Origin: Clostridia bacterium
GTDB taxonomy: Bacteria > Bacillota > Clostridia > Oscillospirales > CAG-272
DNA length: 45,407 bases
Assembly: GCA_017631325.1 (NCBI GenBank)
Contig: JAGBTM010000042.1
Coordinates: forward strand, 1 to 45,407
Direction of reading: 5' to 3'
Shown: in pieces, positions 24,487 to 37,960 of the stretch
Position numbering within the stretch: position 1 is the first letter of the stretch
How the letters are laid out: the number at the start of each line of letters is the position of its first letter
The notes under the pieces: generated by a model
Database searches by the model: none
Told to the model about the DNA's origin: nothing
What the model saw: only the letters and a program-made list of their open reading frames with translations
Program-made: the position numbers and the translations under genes

Positions 24487-25170
24487 TTATCTATTGAGAA
24501 TAAGCTTGGTGAGGTCTACGGGATTAACAATTTCGTTGCCCTTATAAACTCTCATATTACCCGATGCGATTTCGTCGATAAGGATAACCTCCTCACCGTT
24601 GTAGCCGAACTCAAACTTGATGTCCCAAAGGTCAAGGCCGATGGATTTGAGGTCGTCTGCTACGATTTTGGTAATCTTAAGCGTCTGAGCCTTCATGCTC
24701 TCGAACATTTCCTCGGACATAACGCCAAGCGCTGCAAGTCCCTCGCTTGTTACGAGCGGGTCGCCCTTTGCGTCGTTCTTAAAGGTGCATTCAACGTAGC
24801 CGCCGGGGAGGGGAGTGCCGTCAGCGATGTACTCGCCGTATCTTCTGATAAAGCTGCCGGTTGCAACGAGTCTGCAGATAACCTCAAGACCGTGACCGAA
24901 TACCTTTCCGGGAAGAACTTCCATTGTGGCAGACTCTACGTCAGCGCTGACGTAGTGAGTTTTGATGCCCGCTTCCTTGAGAAGATTAAAGTAATAAACC
25001 GAGGTGCGAAGATTAGCCTTGCCGATGCCCTCGATCTTAAGACCTACGGTGTTTTCGCCCGGATCAAAAACACCGTCCTTGCCGGTGCAGTCGTCCTTGA
25101 ACTTAAGAAGCACGTTGCCGTTTTCAAGTGAAAATACGTCCTTGGTTTTGCCTTCATAAATCTTTTTCAT
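24487..25170 (-). CDS. purC: SAICAR synthase (phosphoribosylaminoimidazole-succinocarboxamide synthase)
   Basis: A 227-residue purine-pathway enzyme that joins aspartate to CAIR with ATP. It begins [13 protein letters not shown], the ATP-binding glycine-rich start of Pur[10 protein letters not shown] and [13 protein letters not shown] are the conserved C-terminal motifs. The ATG at 25170 with AAGGAG is chosen; the longer open frame adds 15 unrelated residues. The length is that of the bacterial single-domain enzyme. It is on the opposite strand from the purE operon and has a separate weaker promoter, with no ZTP aptamer in its short leader, so it may be regulated differently from the rest of the pathway. 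Confidence 0.96.
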
Positions 25171-25230
25171 ATTATTCTCCTTTTGCCCGCCGTCGAATAC
25201 AACAGCCAAAGCCAAAAAAATTACGTGTAT

Positions 25231-27302: not shown

Positions 27303-27797
27303 ATGAAAAAAGTTGCTATCATCATGGGAAGCGACAGCGACCTTCCTATCGTAGAGAAGGGTATTAACGTTCTTTCTGACTACGGCATTCCGTTCGAGGT
27401 GCACGTTTATTCGGCGCACAGAACGCCAAAGGAGACCGCAGAGTTCGTATCGGGCGCTATTGACAGAGGGTTTGGAGTTATTATAGCGGCGGCAGGTATG
27501 GCAGCGCATCTTGCAGGTGCGGTTGCCGCGAATACAACCCTTCCCGTTATCGGCATTCCGATTTCCTCAAAGAATACGGGCGGTATTGACGCGCTTTGGT
27601 CGACGGTTCAGATGCCCTCGGGCATACCCGTTGCAACGGTAGCCATTGACGGTGCGGCAAACGCAGCTCATCTTGCGGCCGAGATACTTGCTCTCTCTGA
27701 GCCGTCACTCAGCGAGAAAATCAAAAGCGCAAGAGAGTCGGGACACTCTAAGGTAATAGAAAAGAATAAACAGATAGAGGCTAAATACAATATGTAA
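27303..27797 (+). CDS. purE: N5-CAIR mutase / AIR carboxylase
   Basis: A 164-residue enzyme of the AIR-to-CAIR step. The motifs MGSDSDLP (8-15), SAHRTP (about 39-44) and the C-terminal TVAIDGAANAAHLAAEIL are typical. The usual GMAAHLPG reads GMAAHLAG. No purK is in the operon or elsewhere in the window, which leaves open whether the protein accepts N5-CAIR (class I) or AIR plus CO2 (class II). First gene after the ZTP switch, RBS AAGGAG. Confidence 0.96.
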   Translation: MKKVAIIMGSDSDLPIVEKGINVLSDYGIPFEVHVYSAHRTPKETAEFVSGAIDRGFGVIIAAAGMAAHLAGAVAANTTLPVIGIPISSKNTGGIDALWSTVQMPSGIPVATVAIDGAANAAHLAAEILALSEPSLSEKIKSARESGHSKVIEKNKQIEAKYNM

Positions 27798-27847
27798 CCG
27801 TTGGCTCGCCACGGTTTAGGCAACCCAGATGAAATTCGGAGGAATAT

Positions 27848-29257
27848 ATGGGAGTTTTTGGTATTTTCGCGGGTGAAAAAACGAACGTAGCCTCGAGCGT
27901 ATACTACGGCCTCTACGCGCTTCAGCACAGAGGACAGGAGTCTGCGGGAATCGTCGTAAACGACGACGGAGTTTTCACATCGTATAACGACTCGGGTATT
28001 GTAAACGACGTCTTCACCAAGGATCGACTTGAGGGTCTTGGACAGGGAAACATGGCCATCGGTCACGTTCGTTACGGAACGCTTGGCACGAAGGGAAGAA
28101 TTAACGCTGAGCCGATAGTTATAAATCACGTCAAGGGTAAGCTCGCTATTGCGACGGCCGGCGGTATAGTGAACGCATCTGAATTAAAGCGCGAGCTTGA
28201 GCTTCAGGGTATGATTTTCCATACCACGAATGCCGCTGAGGTCGTGTCTTACGTTATCACCAAGGAGCGCATAAGCTCCTCGTCAATTGAGGAGGCTGTG
28301 GTTCGCTCTATGGAGAGAATTGACGGTGGATTTTGTATGCTGCTTATGTCACCTCAGAAGATGATAGCAGTCAGGGACAAGCACGGCTTTCACCCCATAT
28401 GCTACGGTCAGCGCGAGAGCGGAGAGTACGTTATCGCATCTGAGAGCTGCGCGCTCGATTCGGTAGGAGCTACCTTTATAAGAGAGCTTGACCCGGGCGA
28501 GATTATCGTATTTTCAAGCAAGGGAATCGAGTCTATACGCGACCACTGTGGTAAGGCAAGAGAATCACTCTGCGTGTTCGAATATATTTACACGGCTCGC
28601 CCCGATTCGACCATTTCGGGTCTTTCAGTCCACGAGGCGAGAGCGCGCGCAGGTGCGCTTTTGGCGGCGGCTCATCCTGTTGAAGCCGACGTTGTAGTTG
28701 GAGTTCCGGACTCGGGACTTGATGCCGCTATCGGCTATGCAAACGCATCGGGAATACCCTATGGCATAGGTCTCATTAAGAATAAGTACATAGGTAGAAC
28801 TTTTATAGCGCCCGGTCAAGATGTGCGTGAGGACAAGGTTAAGATTAAGCTCAACCCCGTGCGCTCGACCTTGAACGGAAAGCGCGTCGTTCTGGTTGAC
28901 GACTCGATAGTCAGGGGAACTACCTGCGCAAAGCTCGTCGGCCTTCTCAAAAACGCGGGAGCCGTTGAGGTTCATATTCGCTCGTCAGCGCCTCCGTTCC
29001 TCAACCCCTGCTATTACGGTACTGATATAGATTCTAAAGAATCTCTTATAGCCTGCAACCACACCATTGAAGAAATCAGGCAGATGACGGGTGCTGATTC
29101 TATCGGATTTTTGCGTCTTGAGGACCTTTCGAAGCTCGGTGTAGGCAGTAGCTCTCGCGGCTTCTGTACAGCGTGCTTCGACGGAATATATCCTACAAAG
29201 CCCCCCGTAATCTACAAGAACAAATACGACACTAAAATTTCGGAAAACAAAAAGTAA
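27848..29257 (+). CDS. purF: PurF amidophosphoribosyltransferase with degenerate glutaminase site
   Basis: A 469-residue homologue of the first committed purine enzyme (PRPP plus amide nitrogen to phosphoribosylamine). The PRPP-binding loop VVLVDDSIVRGTT is intact. Cysteines matching the four cluster ligands of the Bacillus-type enzyme remain (CVFEYIY, NPCYYG, and FCTACF near the end). The glutaminase half is not intact. The chain starts MGVFGIF, where active PurF has CGVFGI after processing, and the oxyanion motif HNGNL reads TAGGI (103-107), so Asn becomes Ala104. HRGQESAGI and HVRYG remain. The start is firm: GGAGG is 5 bases upstream and an in-frame stop lies at 27830. The enzyme probably uses free ammonia. 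Confidence 0.92.
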   Translation: MGVFGIFAGEKTNVASSVYYGLYALQHRGQESAGIVVNDDGVFTSYNDSGIVNDVFTKDRLEGLGQGNMAIGHVRYGTLGTKGRINAEPIVINHVKGKLAIATAGGIVNASELKRELELQGMIFHTTNAAEVVSYVITKERISSSSIEEAVVRSMERIDGGFCMLLMSPQKMIAVRDKHGFHPICYGQRESGEYVIASESCALDSVGATFIRELDPGEIIVFSSKGIESIRDHCGKARESLCVFEYIYTARPDSTISGLSVHEARARAGALLAAAHPVEADVVVGVPDSGLDAAIGYANASGIPYGIGLIKNKYIGRTFIAPGQDVREDKVKIKLNPVRSTLNGKRVVLVDDSIVRGTTCAKLVGLLKNAGAVEVHIRSSAPPFLNPCYYGTDIDSKESLIACNHTIEEIRQMTGADSIGFLRLEDLSKLGVGSSSRGFCTACFDGIYPTKPPVIYKNKYDTKISENKK

Positions 29258-29272
29258 AAGGAGATAAGGAAA

Positions 29273-30319
29273 GTGAAAAATTCTAGATCAGAAAGCTACG
29301 CTGCGGCAGGCGTTGATATTACGGCCGGCTACAAGGCGGTAGAGCTTATGAAATCTCATATCGCGCGCACCGTTACCGCGGGAGCAGATACCGACATCGG
29401 CGGTTTTGGCGGTTTGTTTGAGCTTGACCTTGAGGGACTTAACATAACCAAGCCCGTCCTTGTCAGCGGAACCGACGGAGTAGGCACAAAGCTTAAAATC
29501 GCCTTTCTTATGGATAAGCACGATACCGTAGGTATCGACTGTGTTGCTATGTGCGTAAACGACGTTATATGCGTAGGCGCAAAGCCTCTTTATTTCCTTG
29601 ATTATATTGCCTGCGGCAAGAATATCCCCGAGAGAATTGCCGACATAGTTAAGGGTGTTGCCGAGGGCTGCGTTCAGTCGGGCGCTGCTCTTATCGGCGG
29701 TGAAACGGCAGAGATGCCCGGCTTCTATCCTGTCGATGAGTACGACCTCGCAGGCTTTGCCGTTGGTGTGGTTGACAAGAGCCGCGTGCTTGACAAAACT
29801 ACTATGAAGCCCGGCGACACGGTTATCGCTCTTCCCTCAAGCGGAGTACATTCCAACGGATTTTCACTCGTGCGTAAGGTGTTCGACGTTGAGTCGGCCG
29901 ACCTTACCTCTCCGAGAGAGGAGCTGGGAGGAGCTTCGCTGGGACAGACGCTTCTCACACCTACCAAGATATACGTTAAGCCTATCTTAGCACTTCTTAG
30001 CGAGGTGAAGGTTAAGGGAATTTCGCATATCACGGGTGGTGGTTTCTATGAGAACATACCGCGTAGCATACCCAAGGGTCTTGGAGCTAAAATAAATAAA
30101 AAGGATATAAAAATTCTTCCCATCTTCGAGCTTATCGCAAAGTGTGGAAATATTCCCGAGCGCGATATGTTCAACACCTTCAATATGGGCGTCGGAATGA
30201 GCGTTGTCGTTGCTAAGGAGGATAGCGCTCGCGCGCTTGAGATACTCAAGGCAAACGGCGAGGGGGCCTATATTATCGGTGAGATAGTTGAAAGCGAAGA
30301 CGGTGTAATCTTATGTTAA
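29273..30319 (+). CDS. purM: AIR synthase (phosphoribosylformylglycinamidine cyclo-ligase)
   Basis: A 348-residue ATP-dependent enzyme that closes the imidazole ring. It starts at GTG 29273 with AAGGAG upstream and reads [21 protein letters not shown], the standard PurM N-terminus. [23 protein letters not shown] and [13 protein letters not shown] are the conserved ATP- and substrate-binding motifs, and [13 protein letters not shown] lies in the second domain. Full length. It overlaps purN by 7 bases. Confidence 0.97.
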
Positions 30320-30930
30320 ACAAGGCTAAAATTGCAGTTATGGTATCGGGCGGCGGAACTAATCTTCAGGCGCTTATTGATGCGCAGTCCTCGGGTATCA
30401 TAAAGAGTGGTGAGATTGTGCTTGTGCTTTCGAACAAGCCCGACGCTTACGCCCTCACCAGAGCAAAGAATGCGGGAATTGACGTTGCCGTGGTTGACAA
30501 GAAAGAATGCACGGACAGAGCCGACTTTGAAGCTCGAATTGTCGAAATTCTCGACGGACACGGTATAGATATTATCGTGCTCGCAGGATTTATGTGCATA
30601 CTTTCGGCTGAGTTTACGGGGCACTACCACGACAGAATTATCAACGTACACCCCTCGCTTATTCCCTCGTTTTGTGGAGAGGGATATTACGGACTTAGGG
30701 TGCACGAGGCAGCGCTTAAGTATGGCGTTAAGGTTTCGGGCGCTACGGTGCATATAGTCAATGAGATACCCGACGGTGGCAGAATACTTATGCAGCGCGC
30801 CGTTGAGGTGCTCGACAATGATACACCCGAGAGCCTTCAGAGACGCATAATGGAGGAGGCAGAGTGGAAAATACTGCCGCTTTCCTGCGAGCTTATGTGC
30901 AAGCAAATCACCGATGAAAAAGAGAAATGA
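30313..30930 (+). CDS. purN: GAR transformylase (10-formyl-THF dependent)
   Basis: A 205-residue enzyme that formylates GAR using 10-formyl-THF. It opens with [18 protein letters not shown] (GAR phosphate loop). [11 protein letters not shown] holds the catalytic Asn and His, [15 protein letters not shown] holds the catalytic Asp, and the chain ends with the usual helical tail. The motif after PSF ([13 protein letters not shown]) differs from the common PGLHAH but is seen in clostridial forms. The start overlaps the purM stop, so translation is coupled. Its folate need fits the ZTP control of the operon. Confidence 0.96.
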
Positions 30931-30943
30931 GAGGGAAATGCAA

Positions 30944-31660
30944 ATGAACGTTTACAAAATCGATACTATTGGCACTCTCCTTAAGGATAAAAGCTATCCC
31001 GGAAGAGGTATTATAATTGGCAAAAGTGAGGACGGGAAGTCCGCTGTGTTCGCATACTTTATAATGGGTAGAAGCGAAAATTCAAGGAACAGAGTTTTTG
31101 CTCTTCGTGACGGTGCGGTGTTCACCGAGCCCCACGACTTTAGCAAGGTATCCGACCCGTCTCTTATTATCTATTCGGCAGTAAGAAGCGCTTGTGGCTC
31201 GGTGATAGTTACCAACGGTGACCAGACAGACACCATCTACGATGCTATTATTAATGGCGGTGATATGCGTTCGGCTCTTCGCACTCGCGAGTTTGAGCCC
31301 GATGCACCTAATCTTACACCCCGTATCAGCGGTGTTCTCAATTTTGACGGTGAGTTCAGCTACGAGATGAGTATTCTCAAAAGCGCTGACTCCGAGGGCA
31401 CGGGTTGTAACCGTTTCTTCTACGAGTACACCCCCATCGCGGGAGTCGGCCACTTTATTCATACTTACGTTGACGACGGAAATCCTCTCCCTACGTTCCA
31501 GGGCGAGCCTGAGAGAGTAGCTATTCCCTCTGATATTGACGCATTTGCAAGCGCAATATGGACAAATCTCAACGAGGAGAATAAGATATCCCTCTACGTT
31601 CGATACGTCGCTCTTGACGGCGGTGAATCCTGCGAGCGTGTATTCAATAAAAACAACTAA
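30944..31660 (+). CDS. purO: IMP cyclohydrolase, PurO type
   Basis: A 238-residue enzyme of the last purine step (FAICAR to IMP) of the archaeal-type PurO family rather than the PurH N-terminal domain. Key motifs are YPGRGIIIGKSEDGKSAV and YFIMGRSENSRNRVF, which are near-diagnostic, with EYTPIAGVGHFIHTY in the C-terminal half. I start at the third in-frame ATG (30944) because GAGGG lies 8 bases before it and MNVYKIDTI is the usual N-terminus. The first ATG at 30914 is within purN and would add ten charged residues. It works with the separate AICAR transformylase encoded next. Confidence 0.93.
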   Translation: MNVYKIDTIGTLLKDKSYPGRGIIIGKSEDGKSAVFAYFIMGRSENSRNRVFALRDGAVFTEPHDFSKVSDPSLIIYSAVRSACGSVIVTNGDQTDTIYDAIINGGDMRSALRTREFEPDAPNLTPRISGVLNFDGEFSYEMSILKSADSEGTGCNRFFYEYTPIAGVGHFIHTYVDDGNPLPTFQGEPERVAIPSDIDAFASAIWTNLNEENKISLYVRYVALDGGESCERVFNKNN

Positions 31661-31769: not shown

Positions 31770-32954
31770 ATGAAAGAGTTTGAACTTAAATACGGCTGTA
31801 ACCCCAACCAGAAGCCCTCTAAAATTTATATGCACGACGGCTCGGAGCTTCCGATAGAAATTCTTTCGGGCAGACCGGGATACATAAACTTTCTTGACGC
31901 ATTCAACTCATGGCAGCTCGTAAAGGAGCTTAAGGAAGCAACAGGACTTGCCGCGGCTACCTCGTTTAAGCACGTCAGCCCTACCTCGGCAGCTGTTGGA
32001 CTTCCTCTTTCGCCCGAGCTTAAGCGCGCCTGCTTCGTTGACGATATTGAGGGCCTTGACGACTCGCCTCTTGCTTCGGCTTATGCGAGAGCGCGTGGCA
32101 CCGACCGTATGTCCTCGTTTGGCGACTGGATAGCACTTTCGGACGTGTGCGACAAGACCACGGCTCTTATTATTAAGCGCGAGATTTCCGACGGTATTAT
32201 AGCGCCCGGCTACACCGACGAGGCGCTTGAGATTCTCAAAACCAAGAAAAAGGGTAACTATAACATAGTTAAGATAGACCCGAGATTCACTCCGGATCCG
32301 ATAGAGCGCAAGCAGGTATACGGAATTACGTTCGAGCAGGGAAGAAACAATTTCGAGATTAACAGAGAGCTTTTCTCTAATATAGTAACCAAAAACAAGG
32401 AGCTTCCCGAGGAAGCGATAATAGACCTCACGATAGCCCTTATCACTCTTAAGTACACTCAGTCGAACTCTGTATGCTACGCATACAAGGGACAGGCTAT
32501 CGGTGTAGGAGCCGGACAGCAGTCGAGAATACACTGTACCCGTCTTGCAGGAACAAAGGCAGACACCTTCCATCTTCGTCAGTACAAGAAGGTGCTTGAG
32601 CTTCCTTTCCTTCCCACGATTTCCCGCCCCGACAGAGATAACGTAATCGACGGATATATCAACAAGAACGAGGAGGACGTTTGCGCCGAGGGCGTATGGC
32701 AGAAGTATTTCACCACCCGTCCCGAGCCTCTCACTAACGAGGAGGCGAGAGCGTACCTCGATACGATTACGGGCGTTTCACTCGGCTCTGACGCTTTCTT
32801 CCCCTTTGGAGATAACATCGAGAGGGCAAAGAAAAGCGGTGTTTCCTATATTGCAGAGCCCGGTGGCTCGGTGCGTGACGACGTGGTTATAGAAACTGCG
32901 GATAAGTACGGCATGACCGTTGCATTCACGGGAATGCGCCTTTTCCACCACTAA
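31770..32954 (+). CDS. purV: Stand-alone AICAR transformylase
   Basis: A 394-residue enzyme that formylates AICAR with 10-formyl-THF. It corresponds to the C-terminal domain of PurH only, with no cyclohydrolase domain (supplied by PurO upstream). It begins LKYGCNPNQKPSKIYM, the counterpart of RYGENPHQ. TSFKHVSPTSAAVG carries the catalytic Lys-His pair. SDAFFPFGDNIERA, followed by PGGSVRDD, is the conserved C-terminal substrate site. The length agrees with described PurV proteins. RBS is AGGTGAGG. It is another folate-using step under ZTP control. Confidence 0.95.
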   Translation: MKEFELKYGCNPNQKPSKIYMHDGSELPIEILSGRPGYINFLDAFNSWQLVKELKEATGLAAATSFKHVSPTSAAVGLPLSPELKRACFVDDIEGLDDSPLASAYARARGTDRMSSFGDWIALSDVCDKTTALIIKREISDGIIAPGYTDEALEILKTKKKGNYNIVKIDPRFTPDPIERKQVYGITFEQGRNNFEINRELFSNIVTKNKELPEEAIIDLTIALITLKYTQSNSVCYAYKGQAIGVGAGQQSRIHCTRLAGTKADTFHLRQYKKVLELPFLPTISRPDRDNVIDGYINKNEEDVCAEGVWQKYFTTRPEPLTNEEARAYLDTITGVSLGSDAFFPFGDNIERAKKSGVSYIAEPGGSVRDDVVIETADKYGMTVAFTGMRLFHH

Positions 32955-32993: not shown

Positions 32994-34268
32994 ATGAAAA
33001 TAATGGTAGTAGGTGGCGGCGGAAGAGAGCACGCCATTATAAAGAAGCTGAAGGAAAACAAAAGGGTTAGCGAAATCTTTGCTCTTCCGGGTAACGGAGG
33101 TATGGCAAGCGATGCAACGCTCGTGCCGATAGGAGCAAAGGAAATAGACAAAATCCGTGACTTCGCACTCAAGGAGAAGATAGATTACGCCGTAGTAGCA
33201 CCCGACGACCCACTCGTGCTTGGCTGTGTTGACGCACTCGAGGCTGTCGGTGTCAAGTGCTTTGGTCCAAGAGCATGCGCGGCAATAATCGAGGGAAGCA
33301 AGGTTTTTTCAAAGAATTTGATGAAAAAATACTCAATTCCCACAGCGTCCTACGAGGTTTTTGACAACGCTGATGAGGCACTCAGGTATATCGAGAGCTG
33401 TCCTATCCCCACCGTTATAAAGGCTGACGGACTTGCACTCGGAAAGGGTGTAATTATCGCGACCGACAGAGATATGGCGCGCGAGGCTGTAAACTCGATT
33501 ATGAACGACAAGAAATTCGGTGAGAGTGGAAATAAGATAGTAGTCGAAGAGTTCCTCACAGGTCCCGAGGTTTCGGTGCTCGCATTTACCGACGGCACAA
33601 CCGTCGTTCCTATGGTATCCTCTATGGACCACAAAAGAGCCTACGACAACGACGAGGGTCTTAATACGGGAGGTATGGGAACGGTTGCTCCGAACCCCTA
33701 CTACACCGAGGCTATCTCAAAGGAATGTATGCAGACGATTTTTCTTCCCACAATACGCGCTATGAAAAACGAGGGAAGAGAGTTTCGCGGTTGCCTCTAT
33801 TTTGGACTTATGCTTACCGCAAAAGGACCTCGCGTCATAGAGTACAACTGTCGCTTTGGCGACCCGGAAACGCAGGTAGTTCTTCCGCTTCTTCAGTCTG
33901 ATTTGCTTGATATAATGATGGCTACAACCGATGGAAAGCTTGCGGAATGTGAAGTTAAGTTTGCAAACGAAGCTGCTTGCTGTGTAATTATGGCCTCGTC
34001 GGGATACCCCGAGGCATATAAAAAAGGATATGAAATTAAGATAGACGATAAGGTTTTAGATAGCGTATACGTCGCAGGAGCCGCGCTTGAGTGTGGAAAA
34101 CTCGTTACCTCGGGTGGAAGAGTTCTCGGCGTGAGCGCGACGGCTCCGACACTTGCTGAGGCTATCAAGTCAGCCTACTCTAAGGTTGAGAAGATAAGCT
34201 TTGAGGGTGCGTTCTATCGCAAGGATATAGGCAAAAAAGCAATGATGGCAATGGAGGACGAAATTTAA
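32994..34268 (+). CDS. purD: GAR synthetase (phosphoribosylamine-glycine ligase)
   Basis: A 424-residue ATP-grasp enzyme that adds glycine to phosphoribosylamine. It opens MKIMVVGGGGREHAI, the N-domain glycine loop. PTVIKADGLALGKGV is the ATP-grasp lysine strand, and NTGGMGTVAPNPYY and EYNCRFGDPETQVVLPLL are the conserved catalytic segments. Full length. Its TAA overlaps the purL ATG (TAATG), so the two are translationally coupled. Confidence 0.97.
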   Translation: MKIMVVGGGGREHAIIKKLKENKRVSEIFALPGNGGMASDATLVPIGAKEIDKIRDFALKEKIDYAVVAPDDPLVLGCVDALEAVGVKCFGPRACAAIIEGSKVFSKNLMKKYSIPTASYEVFDNADEALRYIESCPIPTVIKADGLALGKGVIIATDRDMAREAVNSIMNDKKFGESGNKIVVEEFLTGPEVSVLAFTDGTTVVPMVSSMDHKRAYDNDEGLNTGGMGTVAPNPYYTEAISKECMQTIFLPTIRAMKNEGREFRGCLYFGLMLTAKGPRVIEYNCRFGDPETQVVLPLLQSDLLDIMMATTDGKLAECEVKFANEAACCVIMASSGYPEAYKKGYEIKIDDKVLDSVYVAGAALECGKLVTSGGRVLGVSATAPTLAEAIKSAYSKVEKISFEGAFYRKDIGKKAMMAMEDEI

Positions 34269-37200
34269 TGGTATATCGCATTTACGTTGAGAAAAAGGCA
34301 GGACTCGATAACGAGGCTCGCGCTCTTCTTTCCGAAATAAAAACGTTTCTTTCAATTGACGGTGTTGATAAGGTGAGAATTATCAACCGTTACGATGCCG
34401 AGAATATCACAAAGGAGCTGTTTGATTACGCTGTAAAGACAGTCTTCTCAGAGCCTCAGCTCGATGACGTTTACACCACTCTTTCAAACGACGGCGCAGT
34501 AGTTTTCGCTACAGAGTTTTTACCTGGACAGTTCGACCAGAGAGCAGACTCTGCGGCTCAGTGTATTCAGCTTATCTCACACGGTGAGAAGCCGAGCGTA
34601 GCGAGTGCAAGAGTGTATATGATTTACGGCAGAATTACCGCTGAAGAGGCTGCCAGAATTAAAAAGCACGTTATAAACCCCGTTGAAGCTCGCGAGGCCT
34701 CTCTCGGATCTAAGAAGACACTCAAATCCGAGTACACCGTCCCCGAGGACGTAAAGGTGCTTTCGGGATTTTTAGAGCTTGATGATGCTGGACTTGGAGA
34801 GATGATATCCTCTATGGGTCTTGCTATGGATATTGACGATATAAGGTTCTGTCAGACCTACTTCAAGTCGGAAAAGAGATGTCCCACCGTCACCGAAATC
34901 AAAATGATAGATACCTATTGGTCGGACCACTGCCGTCACACGACCTTCCTCACCACGATTGACAAGGTGACCTTTGAGGACGAGCTTGTAGAGAAAACCT
35001 ACAACGAATATATACAGTCGCGCGAGTATCTTGAGAGAACTAAGCCGATAAATCTTATGGACATCGGAACTATTGCGGCAAAATGCCTCAAAAAGTGCGG
35101 AAAGCTCGACAAGCTTGACGAGTCTGAGGAAATTAACGCCTGCACCGTTAAAATTACGGTAGACGTTGACGGCAAGGAAGAGCCCTGGCTTCTTCTTTTC
35201 AAGAATGAAACTCACAACCACCCCACCGAAATCGAGCCGTTTGGCGGAGCTGCAACGTGTATCGGTGGCGCTATCCGCGACCCGCTTTCAGGCAGGTCAT
35301 ACGTCTACGCTGCTATGCGTCTTACCGGCGCGGCAGACCCCACCGTTTCGCTTGACAAAACTCTTAAAGGCAAGCTTCCCCAGAGAAAGATAGTAACCAC
35401 AGCAGCGGCAGGATATTCCTCATACGGAAACCAAATAGGCCTTGCTACCGGTATAGTTGATGAAATATATCACGACGGATACGCGGCAAAGCACATGGAG
35501 GTTGGCGCAGTTATAGCCGCCGCTCCCGCTAAGAACGTCAGACGCGAAGTGCCTGCTCCCGGCGACCTTGTAGTATTACTCGGTGGAAGAACCGGACGCG
35601 ACGGCTGTGGCGGTGCAACAGGCTCCTCAAAGTCGCATAATCTCTCCTCTCTTGAGAGCTGTGGCGCAGAGGTGCAAAAAGGTAATGCGCCCGAGGAAAG
35701 AAAGCTTCAGCGTCTTTTCAGAAACCCCAAGGTTTCCTCTATGATAAAGCGCTGTAACGACTTTGGCGCAGGCGGTGTTTCGGTCGCTATTGGCGAGCTT
35801 GCCGACGGTCTTGATATTGACCTTAACGCAGTACCGAAGAAATATGACGGCCTTGACGGAACCGAGCTTGCAATAAGCGAGTCTCAGGAGAGAATGGCAG
35901 TAGTAATCGAGTCAAAGAACCGTAAAAAATTCCTTGACCTTGCTGCTACCGAGAACCTTGAGGCAACCGTCGTTGCAAAGGTAAAGGCAGAGCCGAGGCT
36001 CACTATGAAATGGAACGGAAAAACCATAGTAAACCTCAGCCGCGAGTTCCTCAACTCCAACGGCGCAGAGAAGCACATTGAGATTAAGGCCGCACCCGTG
36101 TGCGATTTTAACAAGGAAATTCCCCAATCGTTCACTGATGGAATGAAAGAAGTAGCAGAGGGACTTAACACCTGCTCCAAGCGTGGTCTGTCTGAGAGAT
36201 TTGACAGCAGTATCGGTGCGGGAACGGTGCTTATGCCCTTTGGCGGTAAGTATCAGCGCACACCCATTCAGTCGATGGTTCATAAGGTTTCGGTGGAAAA
36301 GGGACACACCGACCTCGCGTCCTATATGTCCTGGGGATATAACCCAGACCTCTCGTCTAAGAGTCCCTACCACGGCGCATATTTTGCGGTGGTTGAATCG
36401 GTATCAAAGCTCGTTGCCAGCGGCGCAAAATTTGAGGACGTGTATCTCACGTTCCAGGAGTATTTTGAGAAGCCCGGACGCGACGGCGCGCGCTGGGGCA
36501 AGCCTCTGTCGGCTCTTCTTGGCGCTTACAAGGCACAGATGGAGCTAGGAGTTGCCGCTATCGGCGGTAAGGACTCTATGAGCGGTAGCTTTGAGAAGCT
36601 TGACGTGCCCCCCACTCTTATTTCCTTTGCTGTTACGACGGATAAGGCCGAGTATGCTATCTCTCCCGAATTTAAATCGGCAACAAGCAAGGTTGTTATC
36701 CTCTCTCCCGATTACGATGAGAACGGCCTTCCCGTAACTGAGAGTCTTCTATCGCTTTACTCCAAGGTCAACTCGCTTATGCGAGAGGGCAGAGTGCTTT
36801 CAGCATACACACCCACCATCGGAGGTGTGGCCGAGGCAGTAATGAAGATGTGCCTTGGAAACGGCTACGGCTTTGAGTTTGACCCCTCGGTAACACTCTC
36901 TGACATTTTCTCTTACAAGTACGGCTCGTTTATCCTCGAGGTTTCACCAGAGGAGCGCTTTGGCGAGATTATCGGCTACGTAACCGAGGAGAAAAACTTC
37001 ACCTACAAGGACGAAAAACTCGACACGGATACCGTCATATCGCTCTATGAGGGCAAGCTCGAGGGTGTTTATCCCTGCAATATCAAGGTGGATACTCCCG
37101 CACCCGAAACGGTCAGCTCAAAGAAAAAGATAAGCGTAGCGCCTGCCATCAAGCGCGCAAATCCAAGAGTTCTTATTCCCGTATTCCCGGGTACCAACTG

Positions 37201-37960
37201 CGAGTACGACTCTGCAAAGGCTGTGGCCGACGCCGGCGCAGTACCTGAAATCTTCGTAATCAACAACCTCACAGCAGAGGGCATCAAGCGTTCTGCAGAG
37301 CTGTTTGCAGAGAAGATTTCTGAGTCTCAGGCAATATTTGTGCCCGGTGGATTTTCGGGCGGTGACGAGCCCGACGGCTCGGGTAAGTTTATCACAGCGT
37401 TCTTCCGCGGTGAAGCTGTAAAGAGTGCCGTTAGCGAGCTTCTTGACAGCCGTGACGGACTTATGTGCGGTATATGCAACGGCTTCCAGGCTCTTATTAA
37501 GCTTGGACTCGTGCCCTTTGGCAAGATAGTTGACACCGACGAGAGCTGTCCGACCCTTACCTTTAACAACATCTCGCGTCACCAGTCAAAGATTGTCAGA
37601 ACGAGAATTGCCTCGAATATGTCACCTTGGCTCTCGCTTACCGAGGTCGGTGATATATACAGCGTTCCGATTTCTCACGGTGAGGGCAAGTTCCTTGCAA
37701 CCGATAAGGTTATAAAGAAGCTTATAAAGAACGGACAGATTGCTACTCAGTACGTTGATGAAAACGGACTTGCTACCTACGATATCGACTACAACCCCAA
37801 CGGCTCGACGCTCGCCATCGAGGGTATAACCTCCCCCGACGGACGCGTGTTCGGTAAGATGGGTCACGCTGAGCGTATCGGCAAGGACCTTTACCGCAAC
37901 GTTATCGGAGAGTACGATATCAAAATGTTCAAATCCATGGTTAAGTATTTCAAGGGTTAA
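34268..37960 (+). CDS. purL: FGAM synthase, large single-chain clostridial form
   Basis: A 1230-residue enzyme that converts FGAR to FGAM with glutamine. An N-terminal PurS-like region is followed by a linker, two PurM-like ATP-binding halves (SDHCRHTTFLTT, KNETHNHPTEIEPFGGAAT; and the second half around PIQSMVHKVSVEKGHTD), and a C-terminal class I glutaminase from about 960. The glutaminase is intact: GTNCEYDS, the nucleophile in MCGICNGFQ, and the His and Glu in ISHGEGKF. The length places it in the clostridial 1240-residue clade that replaces PurS/PurQ/small PurL, none of which is seen here. It contrasts with PurF in the same operon, whose glutaminase is degenerate. Confidence 0.97.
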   Translation: MVYRIYVEKKAGLDNEARALLSEIKTFLSIDGVDKVRIINRYDAENITKELFDYAVKTVFSEPQLDDVYTTLSNDGAVVFATEFLPGQFDQRADSAAQCIQLISHGEKPSVASARVYMIYGRITAEEAARIKKHVINPVEAREASLGSKKTLKSEYTVPEDVKVLSGFLELDDAGLGEMISSMGLAMDIDDIRFCQTYFKSEKRCPTVTEIKMIDTYWSDHCRHTTFLTTIDKVTFEDELVEKTYNEYIQSREYLERTKPINLMDIGTIAAKCLKKCGKLDKLDESEEINACTVKITVDVDGKEEPWLLLFKNETHNHPTEIEPFGGAATCIGGAIRDPLSGRSYVYAAMRLTGAADPTVSLDKTLKGKLPQRKIVTTAAAGYSSYGNQIGLATGIVDEIYHDGYAAKHMEVGAVIAAAPAKNVRREVPAPGDLVVLLGGRTGRDGCGGATGSSKSHNLSSLESCGAEVQKGNAPEERKLQRLFRNPKVSSMIKRCNDFGAGGVSVAIGELADGLDIDLNAVPKKYDGLDGTELAISESQERMAVVIESKNRKKFLDLAATENLEATVVAKVKAEPRLTMKWNGKTIVNLSREFLNSNGAEKHIEIKAAPVCDFNKEIPQSFTDGMKEVAEGLNTCSKRGLSERFDSSIGAGTVLMPFGGKYQRTPIQSMVHKVSVEKGHTDLASYMSWGYNPDLSSKSPYHGAYFAVVESVSKLVASGAKFEDVYLTFQEYFEKPGRDGARWGKPLSALLGAYKAQMELGVAAIGGKDSMSGSFEKLDVPPTLISFAVTTDKAEYAISPEFKSATSKVVILSPDYDENGLPVTESLLSLYSKVNSLMREGRVLSAYTPTIGGVAEAVMKMCLGNGYGFEFDPSVTLSDIFSYKYGSFILEVSPEERFGEIIGYVTEEKNFTYKDEKLDTDTVISLYEGKLEGVYPCNIKVDTPAPETVSSKKKISVAPAIKRANPRVLIPVFPGTNCEYDSAKAVADAGAVPEIFVINNLTAEGIKRSAELFAEKISESQAIFVPGGFSGGDEPDGSGKFITAFFRGEAVKSAVSELLDSRDGLMCGICNGFQALIKLGLVPFGKIVDTDESCPTLTFNNISRHQSKIVRTRIASNMSPWLSLTEVGDIYSVPISHGEGKFLATDKVIKKLIKNGQIATQYVDENGLATYDIDYNPNGSTLAIEGITSPDGRVFGKMGHAERIGKDLYRNVIGEYDIKMFKSMVKYFKG

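Follow-up and report, generated by a model that had tools for sequence, protein, structure and literature searches.

The window is a 45,407-nt stretch of a draft genome (1.93 Mb, 61 contigs, 93% complete) from a Clostridia bacterium (Oscillospirales; CAG-272). It carries a purine operon with the gene order purE-purF-purM-purN-purO-AICARFT-purD-purL, together with purC on the other strand. These genes, each with the evidence by which it was named, are:

24487–25215, minus strand: purC (named from its translation; relatives share operons with purE and purF in other loci)
27303–27797, plus strand: purE (TIGR01162)
27848–29257, plus strand: purF, 469 aa, a predicted glutaminase-dead PRPP amidotransferase (TIGR01134 and translation)
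29273–30319, plus strand: purM (TIGR00878)
30313–30930, plus strand: purN (TIGR00639)
30914–31660, plus strand: purO-like IMP cyclohydrolase gene (PF07826; under the NCBIfam cut-offs)
31770–32954, plus strand: AICAR formyltransferase gene of the PRK07106 type (NF005492)
32994–34268, plus strand: purD (TIGR00877)
34268–37960, plus strand: purL with a C-terminal PurQ glutaminase domain, intact by motif (TIGR01857; GICNGFQ, GHAER)

Between 30914 and 32954, a PurO-like IMP cyclohydrolase and a stand-alone AICAR formyltransferase take the place of the bifunctional PurH. The PurQ domain of PurL retains GICNGFQ and GHAER, which we take to be its glutaminase motifs, in agreement with a sequence-only reading of this DNA that had called the PurL glutaminase intact.

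The PurF protein begins MGVFGI and scores 467.5 bits against TIGR01134 (cut-off 350) over residues 2–449, i.e. above threshold and at full length. Residues were numbered and mapped with reference to E. coli PurF (from NC_000913); homologues with and without the catalytic Cys1 are termed Cys-type and Cys-less. Features in and just upstream of the gene are:

27830–27832, plus strand: in-frame TGA stop 5′ of purF, which rules out a longer N-terminus (window sequence)
27838–27842, plus strand: Shine–Dalgarno sequence GGAGG, 5 nt 5′ of the ATG (window sequence)
27848–27850, plus strand: start codon, standing where E. coli PurF has its catalytic Cys1 (alignment)
28154–28168, plus strand: TAGGI replacing HNGNL, with Ala104 (28157–28159) equivalent to Asn101 (alignment)
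28232–28234, plus strand: Ala129, equivalent to Asp127 (alignment with E. coli PurF)
28592–28594, plus strand: Thr249, corresponding to E. coli Phe259 (Thr in 59/59 Cys-less and Phe in 44/44 Cys-type PurFs)
28895–28924, plus strand: PRPP loop VDDSIVRGTT (identical in 59/59 Cys-less PurFs)

The sequence-only reading had placed the initiator Met at the position of the catalytic cysteine and had excluded a missed propeptide, and both claims hold. In the alignment, Met1 coincides with E. coli Cys1. The GGAGG and the in-frame TGA are where they were said to be, and only the residues NSEEY lie between the stop and the ATG, leaving no possibility of a Cys-bearing propeptide. A mis-called start codon is ruled out by these two elements in the window and by the other sequences considered below. 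In a few Cys-less relatives (such as L003 and L045), the open frame continues 5′ of the Met, yet no Cys occurs at position 1; an alternative start may be used in these cases, and it would put no Cys there either.

The replacement of HNGNL by TAGGI is likewise borne out, and the alignment adds a third change in the glutaminase site, Asp127 to Ala. Arg26, Arg73, Tyr74, Thr76 and Gly102 are all retained in the window protein. Among the hallmarks of a class II (Ntn) glutaminase, the N-terminal Cys is lacking (Met1 in the window and in 59/59 members of the Cys-less group), the oxyanion pair Asn101-Gly102 reads Ala104-Gly105, and the Arg73 that binds the glutamine carboxylate is present, as Arg75, in 59/59. 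Judged from these residues, the window PurF cannot be a standard class II amidotransferase.

Equivalents of the PRPP-binding residues Thr333, Arg342, Lys349, Asp366, Asp367 and Arg371 are present in the window PurF and in 59/59 Cys-less sequences; the Lys344 equivalent is Asp, as it is in 41/44 Cys-type relatives. As the sequence-only reading had said, the motif VDDSIVRGTT and the cluster cysteines remain: Cys242, 388, 440 and 443, which we take to be Fe-S cluster ligands of the B. subtilis type, are invariant across a 42-sequence alignment. A wall of the PurF ammonia channel is formed by Tyr74 and Ile335, according to an excerpt of PMC7953260, and both are unchanged in 59/59 Cys-less PurFs. 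AlphaFold2 modelled the window protein with a mean pLDDT of 86.8 and a pTM of 0.85. The glutaminase domain is predicted with confidence (pLDDT at least 79 in 10-residue blocks across residues 1–230), and residues 311–330, the PRPP flexible loop, are uncertain.

We compared the protein with a main set of 110 loci encoding 103 distinct PurFs, drawn from a search of the genus (59/69 genomes with a match at E ≤ 1e-20) and from a scan of named genome contigs in which the best 80 of 213 relatives were used. Because this set is ranked by similarity to the window protein, counts within it are not frequencies. Position 1 is Met in 59 of the distinct sequences and Cys in 44, so the alignment of N-termini proposed in the sequence-only reading shows the loss to be shared. 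In the 44 Cys-type sequences, EEC precedes GVFG, as the end of a propeptide would. The oxyanion Asn101 is N in 44/44 Cys-type sequences and variable in the Cys-less set (N 9, D 34, A 8, S 5, E 2, T 1; n = 59). Gly102 and Arg73 are found in 59/59 Cys-less members, Asp127 is D in 50/59, and residue 2 is Ala in 33/59 and Gly in 22/59, with 4/59 beginning MS. Besides position 1, two substitutions fully separate the groups, namely Glu88 for Gln and Thr249 for Phe, the latter adjoining the Tyr258 equivalent.

The sequence-only reading had argued from two independent losses in one site. Both losses are real; their independence is doubtful, as the wide variation at Asn101, which is still N in 9/59, fits decay after a single loss of Cys1.

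A family-level search gave matches in 134/395 genomes at E ≤ 1e-100. Among the 24 further loci read from it, some of which seemingly repeat earlier species, 16 are Cys-less and 8 Cys-type, and in two of them (L127 and L128) Gly102 is gone too. Inferring Cys status from where a match starts proved unreliable, since L116 matched from residue 2 yet has Met. For the 49 Cys-less loci on named contigs, 38 contig titles give cecum, colon or rectum of deer, sheep, goat or yak, and the other 11 give no body site. When the neighbourhoods of these 49 loci and of the window were queried with the window's own genes, purine genes were found beside purF in 49/49 named loci (purE in 48, purM in 47).

All Cys-less PurFs fall on one side of a single branch (SH-aLRT 99). 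In a tree of 75 rows (31 Cys-less) built after removal of the site columns, this branch received bootstrap and SH-aLRT values of 100/99. The loss of Cys1 maps as a single event, and hence the group offers no independent repeat of its association with other losses. Cys-less PurF is under purifying selection: dN/dS is 0.03–0.12 in both domains for 11/11 close Cys-less pairs, rough values given that dS is often >1 or saturated, and nine Cys-type pairs give 0.02–0.11 where computable. Within the Cys-less group, the glutaminase half changes faster than the phosphoribosyltransferase half: the ratio of their branch lengths is 1.37 there versus 0.83 outside it, and the corresponding parsimony ratio of ratios is 1.52 (column permutation, P = 2e-4). 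Two observations count against a faster-changing glutaminase half: on the group stem it was the phosphoribosyltransferase half that changed more (ratio 0.36), and small Cys-type subclades show ratios scattered from 0.44 to 2.0.

A second, intact purF in the same genome would have undercut the sequence-only reading by its own account. We searched the 93% complete assembly with the window PurF and obtained one PurF match at E ≤ 10, the window protein itself. The same query detects a distant family of PurF homologues, termed PurF2 below, in relatives (mostly at E 1e-39 to 1e-57), and hence a PurF2 or Cys-type copy in this genome would have been visible if assembled. Some relatives do have a second, intact purF. 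G059 and G451 each carry one (Cys read), and G378 probably does so beside its Cys-less gene, judging by a match only. These extra PurFs are ∼60% identical, and those of G059 and G451 adjoin guaA-pyrG.

Other amidotransferases of the window's genome were surveyed in the same way. The only class I glutaminase found with PF00117 is HisH, identified by GICLGMQ and its his-gene neighbours; HisH and PurL/PurQ are intact by motif. Neither GlmS nor AsnB was detected in this genome, a class II (PF13522) search having matched PurF alone; a route to glucosamine 6-phosphate through NagB running in reverse is a guess. The GMP synthetase consists of the synthetase part only, starting MDTNKRPD, with no GATase domain. 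Its gene is divided between two contig regions (G000:C18:3-818 and G000:C5:46781-47120) whose ends share an identical run of residues; this reflects a break in the assembly, not a gene that is truly split. In relatives, the GATase-less GMP synthetase is complete at ∼330 aa. CarB is encoded by a 1065-codon frame within pyrC-carB-pyrK-pyrD (names other than carB assigned by sight), and carA is absent near it. Across 19 carB neighbourhoods of the group (14 from Cys-less genomes; 17 of 7 kb and two shorter), 32 CarA queries gave 0 matches, and the control matched. CTP synthase (PF06418) was found in 0/51 genomes of G000–G050, in 17/18 of G051–G068 and in 14/14 controls. Low search sensitivity was rejected as the cause of the missing amidotransferases, the same searches having given matches in 14/14 controls and, among the 18 genomes G051–G068, in 17 or 18. 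One caveat here is that the absences rest on draft bins and are provisional, and divergent replacements of CTP synthase or GlmS may exist in these genomes. Lack of glutamine synthetase can be discarded as the reason for a switch, as the window's genome has two matches.

Using PF00117 in an open frame of at least 510 aa as the criterion, we found PyrG or full-length GuaA in 2/36 further Cys-less genomes (G451 and G462) versus 13/14 Cys-type genomes. These losses are not in lockstep with that of Cys1: G004, G006, G013 and G018 lack PyrG yet keep Cys1, and G006 and G018 also have carB with no carA nearby.

Many of the 36 further Cys-less genomes retain a protein of CarA length. We read 21 of the 23 such matches (the other two lie on pyrG contigs, G451:C47 and G462:C33), plus one CarA from the PurF2-only genome G031. 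The Cys of GICLGHQ and the His of QFHPE, which we take to be the catalytic residues of CarA, are each kept in 0/22. GICLGHQ has become GIGLGHQ or similar, and the His of QFHPE is lost. These CarA-like proteins, roughly full-length and devoid of catalytic Cys and His alike, are encoded at L196–L205, L211–L221 and L209. In CarAs fetched from genomes with Cys-type PurF, both residues are kept in 9/10, the exception being G492, where a decayed CarA occurs together with a Cys-type PurF.

These data make it quite probable that the window PurF is a true PRPP amidotransferase which no longer hydrolyses glutamine and instead combines PRPP with free ammonia to give phosphoribosylamine. The enzyme would hand its product to PurD, and ammonia would reach the PRPP site either directly or via the old channel. 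The herbivore hindgut is rich in ammonia, which could make the rate sufficient in vivo, and the dead glutaminase domain may be retained because it supports the structure and closes the PRPP site. The sequence-only reading had left the choice between an ammonia-dependent PurF and a separate ammonia donor; its proposal gains support, and free ammonia is preferred to a dedicated donor, since in this genome GMP synthetase and carbamoyl-phosphate synthase have lost their glutaminase parts as well, and HisH and the PurQ domain of PurL are the only other class I or II glutaminases found.

One point against free ammonia is that Arg73 is kept in 59/59 sequences and the glutaminase domain is under purifying selection, more than a vestige needs. 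This would be compatible with a docking partner, in the form of an independent glutaminase or amidase that binds PurF and feeds ammonia into the old channel; the system would then be in two pieces and still glutamine-dependent. Two-piece amidotransferases are common, and the fully retained channel wall and the whole, confidently predicted glutaminase domain would suit such an arrangement. However, HisH and the PurQ domain of PurL are the only class I or II glutaminases found in the genome, and GuaA and CarB have lost their glutaminase parts too. Moreover, glutaminase folds unrelated to one another have decayed in these genomes, which points to one shared cause, namely a change of nitrogen source, and not to a partner private to PurF. 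We consider a docking glutaminase unlikely.

Lower still is the probability that PurF is a relic or regulator, with phosphoribosylamine coming from another enzyme or from ribose 5-phosphate and ammonia, which are known to form it non-enzymatically. This would be hard to square with the persistence of the PRPP-site residues under strong purifying selection in what is the sole PurF found, amid purine genes. An active glutaminase with a different nucleophile is scarcely credible. The invariance of Arg73 and Gly102 in the main set would fit it, and the four sequences beginning MS would expose an N-terminal Ser after Met removal; residue 2, though, is mostly Ala or Gly, Asn101 is replaced in 50/59, and even Gly102 is gone in L127 and L128. 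Finally, a sequencing or assembly error or a wrong start codon, conceivable in a draft genome, has next to no probability and was rightly discounted in the sequence-only reading, given Met at the Cys1 position in 59 distinct sequences from many records and a start fixed by the stop and the Shine–Dalgarno sequence.

With PurF of the B. subtilis type (EC 2.4.2.14), the window protein shares the family HMM, a full-length two-domain architecture, the PRPP loop, cysteines at the Fe-S positions and a place in a purine operon; it differs in having no Cys1 and no propeptide and in the replacement of the oxyanion Asn and of Asp127. A precedent for the chemistry is E. coli PurF with Cys1 replaced, which still uses ammonia (excerpt of PMC3261824, citing Mei and Zalkin 1989). 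The same excerpt describes a Cys-less PurF′ besides a normal PurF in every Crenarchaeon studied, and an extra PurF copy with Ser in one methanogen; ammonia dependence of PurF′ is a suggestion put forward there as untested. Compared by that description, crenarchaeal PurF′, the nearest precedent, resembles the window PurF as a homologue without N-terminal Cys near purine genes. In contrast, PurF′ coexists with an intact PurF, whereas the Cys-less PurF of the window is the only one found in its genome; the combination of Cys-less paralogue and intact PurF is absent there and present in a few relatives. In the open-licence literature, we came across no bacterium described as having a Cys-less PurF as its sole copy, nor any account of this pattern, and only crenarchaeal PurF′ surfaced.

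CPS I is an ammonia-dependent amidating enzyme. Other synthases are described as working on ammonia: ammonia supplied externally can serve the ATPPase subunits of GMP synthetase in vitro (excerpt of PMC10526850), the large subunit of the E. coli enzyme (CarB) alone made carbamoyl phosphate from NH3 in vivo according to the title of a 1987 paper cited in PMC6245113, and type N NAD synthetases are ammonia-dependent (excerpt of PMC3376133). Type N NAD synthetase, CarB alone and CPS I resemble the proposed PurF in being synthases that act on free ammonia with no glutaminase, and they belong to other enzyme families.

Textbooks treat glutamine as the invariable nitrogen donor of the first purine step. 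If our reading is true, a sole PurF unable to use glutamine, together with the decay of CarA and the loss of the GuaA glutaminase, would amount to a changed nitrogen currency. The 2011 suggestion of an ammonia-dependent PurF would become directly testable in bacteria, with the prediction that these organisms are insensitive to glutamine antimetabolites at the PurF step and strictly dependent on ammonia. There is also a consequence for annotation: the curated PurF model scores Cys-less PurFs above its cut-off and does not flag the loss, so they would be called glutamine-dependent.

PurF2 is a name coined here for the MGGFFG or MSGFFG proteins of related Clostridia. Among the 69 genomes of the genus, 17 have a Cys-less PurF, 19 a Cys-type PurF (G059 both; the Cys of G052, G057, G064 and G065 being inferred from the match, not read), 24 PurF2 only and 10 none at E ≤ 1e-20. 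PurF2 loci L274–L284 come from G053, G064, G056, G057, G034, G033, G019, G024, G043, G012 and G029. In 10/13 loci read, PurF2 stands in the place of purF, flanked by purE or purC on one side and by purM on the other; in 13/13, the protein lacks Cys1, and Arg73–Thr76 are deleted. PurF2 retains Arg342, Lys349, Asp366, Asp367 and Arg371, with Ile335 replaced and Ser for Thr333. Two members score ∼160 bits against TIGR01134, under its cut-off, and match no other NCBIfam model at E ≤ 1e-10. Like the window PurF, PurF2 is without Cys1 and sits in the purF slot; unlike it, PurF2 lacks Arg73–Thr76 and forms a separate, distant family, ∼30–38% identical. A glutaminase-dead PurF in the purine-operon slot thus seems to have arisen twice.

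Some genomes appear to hold two sets of enzymes. G059 and G451 have a Cys-less PurF along with PyrG, full-length GuaA and an intact Cys-type PurF adjoining guaA-pyrG on one contig. A Cys-type PurF occurs with PurF2 in the purine operon in G053 and G056 (Cys read) and in G057 and G064 (Cys inferred). Contamination of draft bins may lie behind such two-set genomes. We give roughly even odds to a broader reading, in which free ammonia feeds the synthesis of purines, GMP and carbamoyl phosphate in this ruminant-hindgut lineage of Clostridia. The relatives of this lineage would hold two enzyme sets in parallel. One would work on ammonia and comprise a glutaminase-dead PurF or PurF2 encoded in the pur operon, GuaA lacking its GATase, and CarB by itself; the other would work on glutamine, be clustered with glnA, glutamate synthase and an ANTAR regulator, and presumably serve in times of scarce ammonia. 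PurF2 would be a second, independently evolved ammonia-dependent PurF.

A search of the open-licence literature for the Ruminococcus nitrogen cluster yielded nothing useful here. The long glutamine-using gene cluster itself is seen at L264, L206 and L265 (G451:C47), with parts on contigs of G053, G064, G067 and others. In G451, it starts carB-carA-purF-pyrG-guaA-purB-purA-purC, followed by asnB and a 698-aa glutamine synthetase-like protein, and continues with glutamate synthase-like parts, a glnA-like gene (under the curated cut-off) and an ANTAR-domain regulator.
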